DNA of 64,000 bases. Source: Chryseolinea lacunae (lineage in GTDB: Bacteria > Bacteroidota > Bacteroidia > Cytophagales > Cyclobacteriaceae). Location: the NCBI RefSeq assembly GCF_016735595.1, contig NZ_JAERRB010000001.1, forward strand, positions 1,178,001 through 1,242,000, read 5' to 3'. Positions 38,990-44,094 of this stretch are shown here, piece after piece. The position numbers and the translations under genes are program-made. Under the pieces are notes generated by a model. The model saw only the letters and a program-made list of their open reading frames with translations, ran no database searches and was not told the origin of the DNA. Every line of letters begins with the position of its first letter. Position 1 is the stretch's first letter.

Positions 38990-39427
38990 GATCTGCTTGT
39001 TTTGTTTTGCCGAATCTATTGCTGGGTGCTTGAGTTGTTCTTGTTTCGAAAGCTAATGCGATGGTGGGCTAGTGTTCTTTTTGGTGCTGAGCGTTTGGTG
39101 CGATAGGAGAAAATCTGCCTGGGAGTTCTTTTGCTTTTCATAGCCCCGCTCCCGGGCCGCGGGGGCCCCGCATGCCCCCATCAGGGCTAAACCTTACCCG
39201 CACTTGCCATGACCAGGCCGAAGGTAAGCTTATGCCCTGATGGAGGCATGCTGGAGATTGGGTGTGGCTTGAGTGTGAGGGGGAGGGATGGAATAAATGC
39301 AAGGTAGCGTTATGACCCAAAAGGGTTATTGAGCTTCACGCAATGAGGCATTAATTTGAATGCAATATTTAGCCACAACCCGCCTTAGTGGATTCTCACC
39401 CCTGGGGCATTAAAAAAACCTGACACT
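38990..39427. other. Intergenic region without a gene
   Basis: A 438-bp gap between two plus-strand genes. It holds a very GC-rich block (about 39143-39175) and the long inverted repeat described separately at 39170-39251. No coding frame is supported. Confidence 0.5.
39170..39251. repeat. Long imperfect hairpin element
   Basis: Outer arms of 18 bp (39170-39187 and 39234-39251) match with one mismatch; an inner part (about 39188-39198 with 39224-39233) extends the stem by some ten pairs with one bulge. The whole is an 82-bp stem-loop. It has no T-run and is too large for an ordinary terminator; it may be a palindromic mobile repeat. Confidence 0.7.
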
Positions 39428-40693
39428 ATGCGTTCGATTATTGAAGGCCAGAGGATGCGCGTTAAAAAAGCTTCTATGAAGGCGCAAAATGTAGTTTCTT
39501 CAAGCATTGACAGAAGGACTGCCTTAAAAAATATTTCGTCGATGGTGGCGGCGGTGACGCTGCCTATTGCTGCGGAATCGAAAGAAAAAGACTCAACGCA
39601 AGAATTGCAATCGGACAAACCGCCAAAACCCTTGCGCAAGATCGCTACTGAAGAAGCGTTCAATATTCCTGAAATAGCGGAGGCGATCGCAGACGTGGTG
39701 AAGGAGGGAGGAACAAATCTGGATTTACTTCTTTTGAAACAAATTTATGCCGCGCCCCGCACGTCGCCGCCGACATCGTCGTTGCCCGAAAATGCTGTTG
39801 CTGATCGGGACCGCGCTGCGCTGAGTCTCCTGCCAAAGCTTCTTGATTTGAACGAGATACGGCTGGCTGACATGGAAAAAAGTGGCGTCGACATGCATGT
39901 TCTTTCACTGGCCATGCCCGGTGTGCAAATTTTTGAGCGCGACAAGGCTGCACAACTGGCCAGTCTTTCGAACGACCGTTTGAGTGAAGCCATTCGCCGC
40001 AATCCGAAACGATTTGCCGGTCTTGCCAGTTTTGCTCCTCACCATCCGGGCTCGGCGGCAAAAGAAATGCAACGGGCCATTCATGACCTGAAGCTGAACG
40101 GCTTTATTGTGAACTCGCACACCGAAAATTTCTATCTTGATGATGCCCGGTTTTGGCCCATACTGGAGGCTGCCGAAGCACTAGGCGCCCCGTTGTATAT
40201 CCATCCACGCGCGCCGTCTGACGGCATGGCTGCTCCCTTTCGTGACTACCGTTTGGAAGGAGCCGTTTGGGGCTACGGTCTTGAAACCAGTACACATATT
40301 CTACGGCTGATCTTTAGCGGCGTTCTGGACAAGTTTCCGAAGCTTCAAATTGTTATTGGACACATGGGCGAGGCGCTGCCGTTCTGGCTGTGGCGGCTCG
40401 ACTTTATGGGGGCACCCGGTGCACGCGCCGGCCGCAAGAATGCGCTCAAGCCCAGTGAATATTTTCAACGCAATATCTCCATCACAACCAGTGGTGTTGA
40501 AGATCCGCTTGCCCTTCGCTTCTGCATTGACAAAATCGGAATTGATCGCATTATGTGGGCCATTGATTATCCTTTTCAACCTACGGCACCGGCTGTCGCA
40601 TTTATTGAATCTGCACAACTCTCGGACACTGAACGCGCTAAAATTGCGCATGGCAATGCGGAACGTATTTTCAAAATTAAACCGGTGGACTAG
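39428..40693 (+). CDS. Amidohydrolase of the 2,3-dihydroxybenzoate decarboxylase type, exported
   Basis: A 421-residue amidohydrolase-2 protein. An N-terminal leader with twin arginines (IDRRTALKNISS, then an Ala/Val stretch, about residues 27-50) suggests Tat export of a folded metalloenzyme. Metal ligands fit the non-oxidative decarboxylase group: TEEAF (E75 with Ala77 in place of the second His), IHPRAPS (H259) and IDYPF (D380), with GHMGEALPFWLWRLD between. In 2,3-dihydroxybenzoate decarboxylase the same E-x-A pattern occurs. The start may instead be the ATG at 39476. Substrate probably an aromatic carboxylate; not certain. Its 3-prime end overlaps the convergent hypothetical gene by 17 bp. 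Confidence 0.87.
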   Translation: MRSIIEGQRMRVKKASMKAQNVVSSSIDRRTALKNISSMVAAVTLPIAAESKEKDSTQELQSDKPPKPLRKIATEEAFNIPEIAEAIADVVKEGGTNLDLLLLKQIYAAPRTSPPTSSLPENAVADRDRAALSLLPKLLDLNEIRLADMEKSGVDMHVLSLAMPGVQIFERDKAAQLASLSNDRLSEAIRRNPKRFAGLASFAPHHPGSAAKEMQRAIHDLKLNGFIVNSHTENFYLDDARFWPILEAAEALGAPLYIHPRAPSDGMAAPFRDYRLEGAVWGYGLETSTHILRLIFSGVLDKFPKLQIVIGHMGEALPFWLWRLDFMGAPGARAGRKNALKPSEYFQRNISITTSGVEDPLALRFCIDKIGIDRIMWAIDYPFQPTAPAVAFIESAQLSDTERAKIAHGNAERIFKIKPVD

Positions 40694-41045
40694 TTGGTGG
40701 AAAAGCCAGGAAAAGAAGTCTCATGCTATTTTTTATAATTATTATAATTAAACTCTTCTGGCATAAGTAACAGAATCTAAAATTTATGCAAATCAATTTC
40801 AATCTGATGAACACAAAATATTTTTCAGCATTGGCGAGTGGCTTGCAAATGGCGATGTGCTCTTCAAAGCTGTTTGCTCTGGCGCAACATTCAAATATGT
40901 GCTCGTTGGTTATGTGAACAAAATCGTTCATGTAGTGCCTCGTGATTTGCGAAACAATGTTCTCGGCACCGTGTAGGTGATAGCCTGGGTAGTTTATGCC
41001 TGGTATGTTGGCTTTGATATAGGCGGCGAGCTCGTTAACGGTCAT
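40677..41045 (-). CDS. Hypothetical protein, possibly damaged at the C-terminus
   Basis: A 122-codon frame starting 4 bp after the preceding stop. Residues 1-70 look like a real globular protein (MTVNELAAYIKANIPGINYP; HYMNDFVHITNEHIFECCARA). After about residue 75 the sequence becomes unlike protein, with repeated Ile and a Pro-rich end, and runs into the 3-prime end of the amidohydrolase on the other strand. This suggests truncation or a frameshift when the region was rearranged. The base composition is AT-rich like its neighbours to the right. Family unknown. Confidence 0.5.
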   Translation of the reverse strand: MTVNELAAYIKANIPGINYPGYHLHGAENIVSQITRHYMNDFVHITNEHIFECCARANSFEEHIAICKPLANAEKYFVFIRLKLICINFRFCYLCQKSLIIIIIKNSMRLLFLAFPPTSPPV

Positions 41046-41049
41046 GACA

Positions 41050-41418
41050 CTATGTGATGAGGTGAAGTTGGGCGGGGTTTAGCTGAGCGTCGAGGAGGGT
41101 GTCGATTTCTTGGAAGAAGTTTTTTGCGGGGACGTGATAGGTCGTAGTGTTTTGTATTTCTTTGACGATGGCGCTGTAGGTGGCAAGGCTGATTTTGGAA
41201 GCGGCGAGGTCGAGAAGCTTTTCCCTGATGATGTACTTATGATGGTTGTCGACTTTTAGATAGAATTTGAATTCTAGGTAGGTTGTGAGGTCGTTTAGGA
41301 TGCGGTTGATCAGGTTGGAGCGATGCTCCGATAAGATTTCCTGGATTCGGAAGAGGGTGACGTTTTGGTCTGCTTCTTCGAGATGTTTTACGTCGTTTGC
41401 TATTCTGATGACTTTCAT
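41050..41418 (-). CDS. Hypothetical protein, first gene of a small operon
   Basis: A 122-residue, mostly helical, charged protein (MKVIRIANDVKHLEEADQNV; ILSEHRSNLINRILNDLTTY; AASKISLATYSAIVKEIQ). No signal or membrane segment and no motif I can name. It is followed after 4 bp by the second gene, and preceded by two small ACTA/TAGT palindromes in the likely promoter. A pair of small coupled genes with an operator in an AT-rich island recalls toxin-antitoxin layouts, but nothing in the sequence proves this. Confidence 0.7.
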   Translation of the reverse strand: MKVIRIANDVKHLEEADQNVTLFRIQEILSEHRSNLINRILNDLTTYLEFKFYLKVDNHHKYIIREKLLDLAASKISLATYSAIVKEIQNTTTYHVPAKNFFQEIDTLLDAQLNPAQLHLIT

Positions 41419-41426
41419 ACACCATT

Positions 41427-41467
41427 ACTATTAGTTTTTCTAAAGATAAATAACTAATAATATTAGT
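41427..41467. promoter_or_regulatory. Two ACTA...TAGT palindromes upstream of the hypothetical pair
   Basis: ACTATTAGT (41427-41435) and ACTAATAATATTAGT (41453-41467) are palindromes sharing the same half-site, placed 8 and 34 bp before the start at 41418. They look like paired binding sites of one regulator. Confidence 0.45.
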
Positions 41468-41590
41468 ACTTTAAAATGGCGATTCTAAATCGTAAGGTTC
41501 TGGTTTTCAGTTACAAAAATTCAGAGAAAACGATACTCTCGATCATTCTCCCTTGTAAATTCACTTACAAAAGTGTATCATTACAATAGA

Positions 41591-41637
41591 GCCCATCAAT
41601 AGCAGCAGTGCTATGGATGGGCTTTTTTTATTTTTTT
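41591..41637 (+). terminator. Orphan strong terminator
   Basis: A 14-bp stem with one mismatch (41591-41604 and 41609-41622), loop GCAG, followed by TTTTTTTATTTTTTT. It is a first-class plus-strand terminator, but no plus-strand gene ends before it: the nearest gene to the left is transcribed away from it. It may end a small RNA from 41468-41590, act as a leader attenuator of the gene at 41676, or mark the old end of a displaced gene. Confidence 0.85.
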
Positions 41638-41675
41638 GAAATTCGACACGTCGGCAACGCCTTCCAATTCATCTT

Positions 41676-42266
41676 ATGGAAAAACTTACAACCCTGAACC
41701 TCACATTCGACCGAATTATAATTCAACTAGTGACCCCCGGTCTAATAGCCGCCTATCCATACATTCTCCTTTTTTTTCACGAGCGCGAGGACTCTAAGGA
41801 ATTCTTTTTATCCAATAAAGACGGAATATTTATCGCCTTTCTGATCGTTATCGGACTGATTGTTGGACTACTGCTTGAAAACATAGGAAGCCGAATTGAA
41901 CTACACTACTACGATCGAAAACAAAAAGAAAAGGATAGTGGCTTTGTTGATACTTGGCAAAAATTTCTACAGCTTCCTATAAAAGGGGATGGCGAAAATG
42001 AGCCGGTGGGACACGGCTATATCCGGAATATACTTTTTAGAATGAAATTTGAACTTTCCGTTGGCGTTGCGCTGCTGTTTATGGTTGTCGGCTTGGGAAT
42101 CTATAATGCGGACAATACAATTTTTAAAAGTTGCTATTTGAATCTACTTCTCGTCTACGTTCTTCCAATTGCTCTAAGTCTCTACTTGATTCTGTTCGAA
42201 GGATACGCTAGCGCAAAGATTCTCGGAGAAACGCGAAAACTTCTGGTCATCAAATATTACAAATAG
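41676..42266 (+). CDS. Four-helix membrane protein next to the Shedu-like gene
   Basis: A 196-residue integral membrane protein with helices at about 15-33, 48-68, 125-142 and 150-170. Between helices 2 and 3 is a cytoplasmic segment of some 55 charged residues (RIELHYYDRKQKEKDSGF). No family recognised. It starts 38 bp after a strong terminator, is AT-rich compared with the flanks, and is followed on the same strand, after a 396-bp degraded-looking gap, by the DUF4263 nuclease gene. A role as accessory of the defence gene is possible but rests only on proximity. Confidence 0.75.
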   Translation: MEKLTTLNLTFDRIIIQLVTPGLIAAYPYILLFFHEREDSKEFFLSNKDGIFIAFLIVIGLIVGLLLENIGSRIELHYYDRKQKEKDSGFVDTWQKFLQLPIKGDGENEPVGHGYIRNILFRMKFELSVGVALLFMVVGLGIYNADNTIFKSCYLNLLLVYVLPIALSLYLILFEGYASAKILGETRKLLVIKYYK

Positions 42267-42662
42267 ACATCCGTCGACTAAGCCAGAATATATTGAATAT
42301 GTGTTCCAACCCTTTAAGAACGAACGATCTTAATAATTCAATGGCGCGGCTAAAGATGAAATATTTTTTGCCATTAAAATAATGGAGGAATGCCTGGTTT
42401 ACTCGAGGAACTCAAGAATAGCAAGTCGTTAGAACTTTCTTTAACAAATAATGAACGATTTCTTTGAACTCTTGAGCCGGGATTCTAAAAAAAACGAAGC
42501 CTCATTAGTATGAAGGTACAGCCGAAGAAAGCCATCTCGAAATATGACGCATCAACGTGGATGCATGTATTAGCAGAAGAGCTATGAATAATATCTCATC
42601 CACTACAGGGCGACGGTCAAGTAAATTATGAAAGTGATTAATAATCTTTATTCAGATAAGTT
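42267..42662. other. AT-rich gap with chained tiny frames
   Basis: Between the membrane protein and the nuclease three short plus-strand frames overlap one another: 42390-42467 (MPGLLEELKNSKSLE...), 42451-42513 (MNDFFELLSRDSKK...) and 42510-42587 (MKVQPKKAISKYDAS...). Each has protein-like composition and 20-25 codons. They look like one decayed gene broken by frameshifts, or less likely three coupled microproteins. Confidence 0.4.
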
Positions 42663-43946
42663 ATGCCAAAAGGAACCGAGTCGCGGACTAAAAACACGAA
42701 GCAACTTCAAACGTACTACTTTCAGCTTGAAGGGGGTAAGGAAAAACAGCTCTCAAGGGAGATTATCAAAGTTGGGAAAGGCTTCACGCAGATTCACTAC
42801 CCAATTGGATTCAAGGGTGGACCGAAATACAAAACAATTAAGAGGTTTGTCTACAAAGGGTTTCCTCTGAACGATCTTCCAGTCGGAGTTTCTGCATCAC
42901 CGACCAAGGGGTATGGATTCACAAGGCACCTGAAGACGTTCGAAAAGTTCATCGACAAAGAGTACAAGTTTGACGATATCGTCATTGAAAAAGGCGGCAC
43001 GATACTTTTCGACCCCAAAAAAAAGGAACTACTGTTGAATGAGTCGGTATTGAGGGATCTAAAGAATTCCTTCGACACCATTGATCGCAGGAGTAAAGAT
43101 GAAGCGAAGCAAGCATTGGAGACTGTCCTGCATGATTTATTTCCAAAGGTTTTCAAAAAATCAAAAAAGAATTCTTACAGAGCCGGTACCCTTGCCTATA
43201 CAATTAATTCATGGGGTAATTCGATGGACGAGTTCTCTGAAAATGATAAGCAAGCAATTCGCGATCTATTTGATAAGCTGTCGCTTAAGGACGGCTTCTT
43301 GTCCGATGACTCTCTAAAGAAGACGAAGGAGATCATCGACGTTCAGTATTTGCAAAAAACACTTATCAAATATCAAAAACTTTTAGGGACGCCAACGGCA
43401 GAAAAACGGTGGCAAGATTTCTTAAGAACAAATAGTTGGATTTTTTCCAGCATCCTTGCTCAACCTGTTATACTCTATCAGGCGGAAGCATTTGTTGGTG
43501 GCAAAAAGCTAGACAATACCAACGGAAAAATCACTGATTTTCTCCTGCAAAACTCACTCAGCGATAATATCTCATTCCTGGAGATCAAGACGCATAAAAC
43601 AAGCCTTTGTGAAAAAAATGCGTATCGTGGTGATGACGTTTTTAGCCCCTCAAATGATCTCGCGGGCTCTATTATTCAAGTCCTCAACCAACGCGACACT
43701 TTTCAGAAGGAATTTTATGCAAACCGGTATAAATCAGGACAAGGCAAGAAGCCAGAAGAAGTTCCGAGGTACGAGACGTATAACTCGAAATGCATCGTCC
43801 TTTGTGGAATGCTCAAAGATTTAACTCCGAACCAACGCAATGCTTTTGAGTTATTTAGAAACAATAGCCGTGATGTGGATGTATTTACATTTGACGAGCT
43901 GGAAGCGAAGATTTCAGCATTGCAGAACTTGATGAACAGAAAATAA
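42663..43946 (+). CDS. Shedu-type (DUF4263) antiphage nuclease
   Basis: A 427-residue protein whose C-terminal half (about 235-405) matches the SduA/DUF4263 domain. The sequence RWQDFLRTNSWIFSSIL is followed by a PD-(D/E)xK-type core: Asp in KITDFLLQN (D292), then Glu-x-Lys in SFLEIKTHK (E307, K309), and a downstream SIIQVLNQRD helix. The N-terminal 230 residues are a separate, Lys-rich part that in this family varies and probably senses the trigger. Shedu proteins are single-gene phage-defence nucleases in many bacteria. Start ATG at 42663. The gene is AT-rich relative to the chromosome around it, and lies next to a membrane protein and possible relics, consistent with a transferred defence locus. 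No restriction-modification genes are present. Confidence 0.85.
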   Translation: MPKGTESRTKNTKQLQTYYFQLEGGKEKQLSREIIKVGKGFTQIHYPIGFKGGPKYKTIKRFVYKGFPLNDLPVGVSASPTKGYGFTRHLKTFEKFIDKEYKFDDIVIEKGGTILFDPKKKELLLNESVLRDLKNSFDTIDRRSKDEAKQALETVLHDLFPKVFKKSKKNSYRAGTLAYTINSWGNSMDEFSENDKQAIRDLFDKLSLKDGFLSDDSLKKTKEIIDVQYLQKTLIKYQKLLGTPTAEKRWQDFLRTNSWIFSSILAQPVILYQAEAFVGGKKLDNTNGKITDFLLQNSLSDNISFLEIKTHKTSLCEKNAYRGDDVFSPSNDLAGSIIQVLNQRDTFQKEFYANRYKSGQGKKPEEVPRYETYNSKCIVLCGMLKDLTPNQRNAFELFRNNSRDVDVFTFDELEAKISALQNLMNRK

Positions 43947-44094
43947 CCTTTATGAATATAATAACTGTTGTGCTACCTGGTTTGAGATTTATATGGCCAT
44001 AATTTTACGTCAAAATCAACGTCAACGCAACAAATCTCCGATGCGTTAATGATTTCGCGCGCCCAGTGATTAACTCAAGTGGAGCTGAAAAAAA

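Follow-up and report, generated by a model that had tools for sequence, protein, structure and literature searches.

A probable stand-alone Shedu (SduA) nuclease gene in an AT-rich patch of the Chryseolinea lacunae genome

The 64-kb stretch of DNA analyzed here (the window) belongs to contig 1 of a 7.9-Mb genome and carries a gene that a first-pass annotation had read as a Shedu-like nuclease with a possibly new N-terminal sensor, located in a probably transferred antiphage segment. The locus raises the question of whether this gene encodes an anti-phage nuclease, what its N-terminal half represents and whether it was acquired from elsewhere. In the interpretation favored here, with a probability of roughly 0.85, it encodes a stand-alone Shedu (SduA) anti-phage nuclease and was probably acquired horizontally. 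The gene and the two parts of its product are:

42663..43946, plus strand: sduA, Shedu immune nuclease, 427 aa (ORF with an ATG; Pfam SduA_C, PADLOC SduA and 8ti8 matches)
42663..43226, plus strand: putative N-terminal regulatory region, residues 1-188 (AlphaFold2 model and PADLOC SduA profiles; role as regulator extrapolated from other Shedu proteins)
43398..43901, plus strand: C-terminal PD-(D/E)xK nuclease domain, residues 246-413, with D292/E307/K309 (Pfam SduA_C, invariant residues, Foldseek match to 8ti9)

The assignment of the C-terminal domain to DUF4263/SduA was borne out by HMM searches, in which Pfam SduA_C/DUF4263 covered residues 246-413 (E 1.3e-24, 87.6 bits, cut-off 27) and 16 PADLOC SduA profiles matched the product at E up to 1, 15 of them below 0.001. 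The best of these, PDLC00384, extends over residues 69-426 (E 3.2e-72) and PDLC00380 over residues 72-424; a search against NCBIfam gave nothing relevant. In a single-sequence search of solved chains, nothing but the SduA of B. cereus (8ti8; residues 210-424, E 5.5e-34) matched at E up to 1, and E. coli SduA joined the matches when a 15-row profile was used (E 9.2e-11). The closest full-length relative, encoded at locus L056 in the Flammeovirgaceae MAG contig JAHEZH010000072.1, is 67% identical over the full length of the window SduA, and the start codon is supported by the fact that the L056 ORF begins in register.

The nuclease core recognized in the first pass, D292 ... E307-x-K309, was likewise confirmed. 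None of the three residues varies in the 15 rows of a first alignment or in the 35 rows of a second, composed of the window protein and 34 homologues picked from 94 fetched loci for spread and N-terminal coverage, and they face D251, E266 and K268 of 8ti8 in an ungapped part of the pairwise alignment. The 8ti9/8tia chain of B. cereus SduA has Ala at the position of E266, a replacement that would fit an inactivated construct. The AlphaFold2 model of the whole protein, built from the 35-row alignment (mean pLDDT 84.9, pTM 0.54), matched the nuclease domain of 8ti9 (Foldseek E 4.4e-12, TM 0.88 by target length), with a poorly modelled stretch at residues 276-288, near D292 in sequence (pLDDT below 50). 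The alignments thus place the sduA product as a full-length SduA with a complete C-terminal PD-(D/E)xK Shedu nuclease domain that has all three catalytic positions.

The N-terminal part had been described as Lys-rich and unlike anything known. Its composition was as stated (35 Lys in residues 1-230, 15%), but the second claim did not survive the search of PADLOC, whose SduA profiles match the window's N-terminal region even when it is taken alone (PDLC00384, 1.6e-8; PDLC00380, 1.4e-4). Both profiles match most of the window protein, leaving residues 1-68 uncovered, and at E up to 0.01 they detected 29 (PDLC00384) and 28 (PDLC00380) of 35 sampled N-terminal regions; the nearest relative over this region is 55% identical. 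According to a grouping drawn after the data were seen, the sampled regions separate into 12 compact ones (the window protein plus 11), for the most part 187-192 aa in length, and 23 of a longer form, and a comparison of the profiles of the two groups, aligned separately, gave a probability of 97.9% (E 3.4e-13). Since PADLOC SduA profiles match most sampled regions and the two groups are related, the N-terminal region is not a novelty of the window protein; as judged from these profiles, it is a family trait common to most sampled relatives. The proposal of a new N-terminal sensor cannot be kept as it was worded, the domain lying within two existing PADLOC SduA profiles and being common to most of the relatives sampled.

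Several other leads on this region were followed and discarded. The comparison between the compact and longer groups replaced one in which the N-terminal alignment was set against a member from a rhizobial plasmid (99.6%), because the alignment contains a near relative of the latter, L124, and the two sides are not independent. Compared to longer-form SduA proteins, the window protein has a shorter, positively charged N-terminal region, and net charge was positive in 12 of 12 compact-group rows (window included) vs 5 of 23 longer-group rows; as a sign of DNA binding this charge was set aside, since it is positive in just 17 of the 35 regions and the compact group was delimited post hoc. A Pfam scan of the window's N-terminal region detected no domain, and the winged-helix family PF22166 matched a single one of the 35 regions (8.4e-6), with no match to that of the window. 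The best PDB profile match of the N-terminal alignment, the designed protein 4hhu (E 1.4e-4, profile positions 164-215), was read as helix composition, as matches of this type fall on the long helix described below. Gu et al. in 2025 are said, going by the title and by citing papers, to have handled Shedu N-terminal domains as a class.

Modelled alone, again from a 35-row alignment, residues 1-188 reached a pLDDT of 90.0 and a pTM of 0.79. In the AlphaFold2 model residues ~1-126 form a beta-rich alpha/beta domain (strands 4-11, 15-22, 28-37, 40-45 and 61-65, helix 88-100 and further strands to 126), followed by a long helix at residues 127-159. A Foldseek search of the PDB with this model gave no significant fold match among the best 50 of 193 matches (E up to 10; best E 0.33), and no solved SduA chain appears among the matches listed (best 50 of 193). 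A viral fold library produced a single match below 0.001 (4.9e-4), with a TM of about 0.1, which was rejected. As to architecture, an N-terminal domain and a nuclease are fused in a single protein, the two parts being joined by helices in the model, and this arrangement, a compact alpha/beta domain joined by helices to the nuclease, is common to other SduA proteins. In the fold search (best 50 of 193) the N-terminal domain did not resemble that of a Shedu of solved structure; within the family these domains vary (PMC12904381, PMC12409362).

Compared with B. cereus SduA (8ti8, 8ti9, 8tia), the window protein is alike in the nuclease domain, both by sequence and by Foldseek and with the catalytic D/E/K aligned, whereas its N-terminal part gave neither a sequence alignment nor a fold match (best 50 of 193). 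The nuclease part is also shared with E. coli SduA (8ps4, 8ps5) by profile and fold, but the superposition at full length is poor. The full-length match to 8ps4 (461 columns, rmsd 17.5, TM 0.37/0.39) was considered as a sign of a shared N-terminal clamp and rejected, and 8ps4 is absent from the best 50 of 193 matches of the N-terminal model alone.

E. coli SduA is described as a homotetramer whose N-terminal clamp binds DNA ends and which nicks at a fixed distance (PMC12904381), and diverse N-terminal regulatory domains are mentioned for type I Shedu (PMC12409362, PMC12137116). By analogy with these descriptions, the window protein would form an oligomer in which the N-terminal part holds the nuclease inactive. 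What this part may recognize is some trait of the incoming DNA, with free ends or linear intermediates as the likeliest candidates, and binding would lift the block, so that the nuclease would cut near the end and the phage DNA would be destroyed while the cell survives. For the window SduA the DNA-end mechanism is an assumption, because its sequence alignment with solved SduA chains is limited to the nuclease half; in more general terms, the protein would be expected to stay autoinhibited until its N-terminal region reads a signal that frees the nuclease.

Concerning the origin of the gene, the first pass had delimited an AT-rich segment at 40.7-44.0 kb with mostly unknown genes. The features around sduA are:

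41441..44060, no strand: AT-rich patch proper, GC 0.33-0.41 by part (GC profile; left limit from the genus-typical gene pair)
40677-41418, minus strand: gene pair, 122 + 122 aa, genus-typical
41676..42266, plus strand: 196-aa ORF, probably a membrane protein (hydrophobic stretches by eye), with no significant Pfam, PADLOC or NCBIfam match

The deviation in composition is clear, as positions 40691-44060 have a GC of 0.400 and the 1078 other stretches of the same length in the window, which overlap one another, have a mean of 0.524 (SD 0.011) and a minimum of 0.494. Its extent had to be revised. All 6 genus genomes, own included, encode relatives of the 122-aa product of 41050-41418 (weakest 30% identity), with three matches in the genus genome G003, where a relative of the second ORF of the pair follows in the same order (39% over 75 residues, 2.6e-17). 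These comparisons make the left part (40.68-41.42 kb) look like native DNA of the genus, and the patch proper was accordingly restricted to ~41.44-44.06 kb. The description of the segment as holding mostly unknown genes needs a similar adjustment, as two of the four ORFs are this genus-typical pair of unknown function, and one ORF is nearly unmatched. The latter, the 196-aa ORF, matches 2 of 296 phylum genomes, own included; it lies upstream of sduA within the AT-rich patch and no sign of its working with sduA was found. The GC3 of sduA (0.473; native neighbors 0.51-0.68) deviates less than its overall GC.

Marks of a mobile element were scarce. A tRNA search of the 64-kb window and a Pfam scan of seven ORFs for an integrase were negative, and the repeats of the patch are just short imperfect two-copy pairs. 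Promoter-like sites in the patch number 11 vs 7.4 in shuffles and terminator-like sites 2 vs 3.7, and the single Rfam match (E 0.74) falls outside the patch. With no tRNA in the window, no integrase in the seven ORFs and only short imperfect repeats in the patch, the transfer of sduA rests on composition and distribution. Outside the patch, positions 39075-39300 hold one copy of a GC-rich element that looks palindromic by eye. Dozens of partial copies (75-88% identity) are dispersed over the own genome and the genus genomes G001 and G002, frequently paired in opposite orientation with a few hundred bases between them.

To look for an empty site, the flanking proteins and flanking DNA were compared with the genus genomes. 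The nearest genes that G001 and G002 share with the window correspond to its positions 34.1-35.7 and 50.7-52.3 kb; the intervals between them measure about 49 and 36 kb, and no gene of the window's 36-50 kb stretch was detected there at 1e-15. In G003 a copy of the left neighbor (78%) has a different right neighbor. The 36-50 kb stretch is a variable region in the genus, the site differing as a whole. Because the surrounding 36-50 kb differs too, an absence of the AT-rich patch alone is not demonstrable.

Relatives of SduA escaped single-sequence scans of the genome and viral collections and were found by alignment-based ones. SduA matches were detected in none of the five other genus genomes, in 2 of 59 related genomes and in 12 of 395 phylum genomes (own included in both counts). 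Relatives occur in 134 plasmid records, many of them annotated 'Shedu immune nuclease family protein', and 14 IMG/VR contigs encode one. Horizontal acquisition is argued for by the AT-rich patch together with this patchy distribution. The transferred antiphage locus of the first pass is upheld in this sense by the family searches, the composition and the lack of a match in the other genus genomes (0/5), except for the native-looking left part of the segment. The presence of relatives on plasmids and IMG/VR contigs could also suggest that sduA is a Shedu-fold PD-(D/E)xK nuclease with a housekeeping or mobile-element role instead of one in phage defence; given the defence neighborhoods of relatives, the sparse distribution and the fact that none of 50,697 phage records matched at 1e-5, this is highly improbable. 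As separate observations, one identical 469-aa Shedu protein was found in nine records (L067, L068, L071-L075, L131 and L037) from unrelated genera (e.g., Stenotrophomonas, Pseudomonas and Pseudochrobactrum), a Citrobacter plasmid and an IMG/VR contig, suggesting a widely mobile element, and a Gracilibacteria MAG contig encodes a 44% identical SduA (L052:7001-8203; tblastn, residues 18-426), the C-terminal part of which is spanned by a 250-aa ORF under code 25.

Relatives of SduA are found alone, beside other defence genes or within type I restriction-modification (R-M) operons. At L056 a GmrSD gene lies upstream and SIR2_2 and HerA-type genes downstream, whereas the window sduA has none of them adjacent. 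In L046, which encodes a 47% identical relative, the order is hsdM, a 158-aa gene, hsdS, sduA and hsdR (hsdS identified by Pfam; hsdM and hsdR by similarity to annotated L035 genes, 4.4e-69 and 1.7e-70). Among the 92 scanned loci with an SduA ORF, out of 94 fetched and representing 84 distinct SduA proteins, a same-strand type I R-M gene is present within 3.5 kb at 15, and two or more kinds of subunit occur in this range at 11, the latter count being probably a lower bound as some loci end at contig ends. Three of the 11 plasmid regions read, of the 134 matched records, contain the arrangement hsdS-hsdM-RhuM-hsdS-sduA-(HAD or DUF3800)-hsdR-SprT. Shedu genes embedded in type I operons were noted in L035, L036, L045, L046, L054, L060, L077, L083 and L087, in most cases with hsdS immediately upstream and hsdR following; RhuM, HAD or DUF3800, and SprT genes accompany several of them.

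These arrangements, from the L046 gene between hsdS and hsdR to the 11 of 92 loci and the three plasmid operons, raise the alternative that the window sduA is a type I R-M accessory protein. Against it, 77 of the 92 loci, L056 as the closest one included, yielded no same-strand type I gene in the 3.5-kb range, and the window ORF is intact with its catalytic residues invariant, which makes an accessory role quite unlikely. No hsdM, hsdS or hsdR gene is adjacent to the window sduA, and the one Methylase_S match in the source genome (27.1 bits, cut-off 22) lies on a different contig. The reading of sduA as a stand-alone anti-phage nuclease is supported by the family matches, the invariant D292/E307/K309 and the match of the nuclease model to 8ti9, as well as by the defence neighborhood of L056, the position of L046 in a type I R-M operon and the Shedu annotations on plasmids.

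A bolder and rather doubtful extension would be that the uncharacterized, compact, Lys-rich N-terminal fold recognizes an invader signal other than that sensed by the Shedu clamps of B. cereus and E. coli and that, in the part of the clade wired into type I R-M operons, Shedu serves as an additional nuclease responding to R-M products, e.g., linear DNA ends.

With this locus, a Shedu member is recorded in a genus whose other sampled genomes have none. Its compact, confidently modelled N-terminal domain, for which no solved relative was found, makes the protein suitable for structural work, and the recurrent hsdS-sduA-hsdR placement in relatives suggests that an end-sensing nuclease may be linked to the DNA ends that restriction produces.
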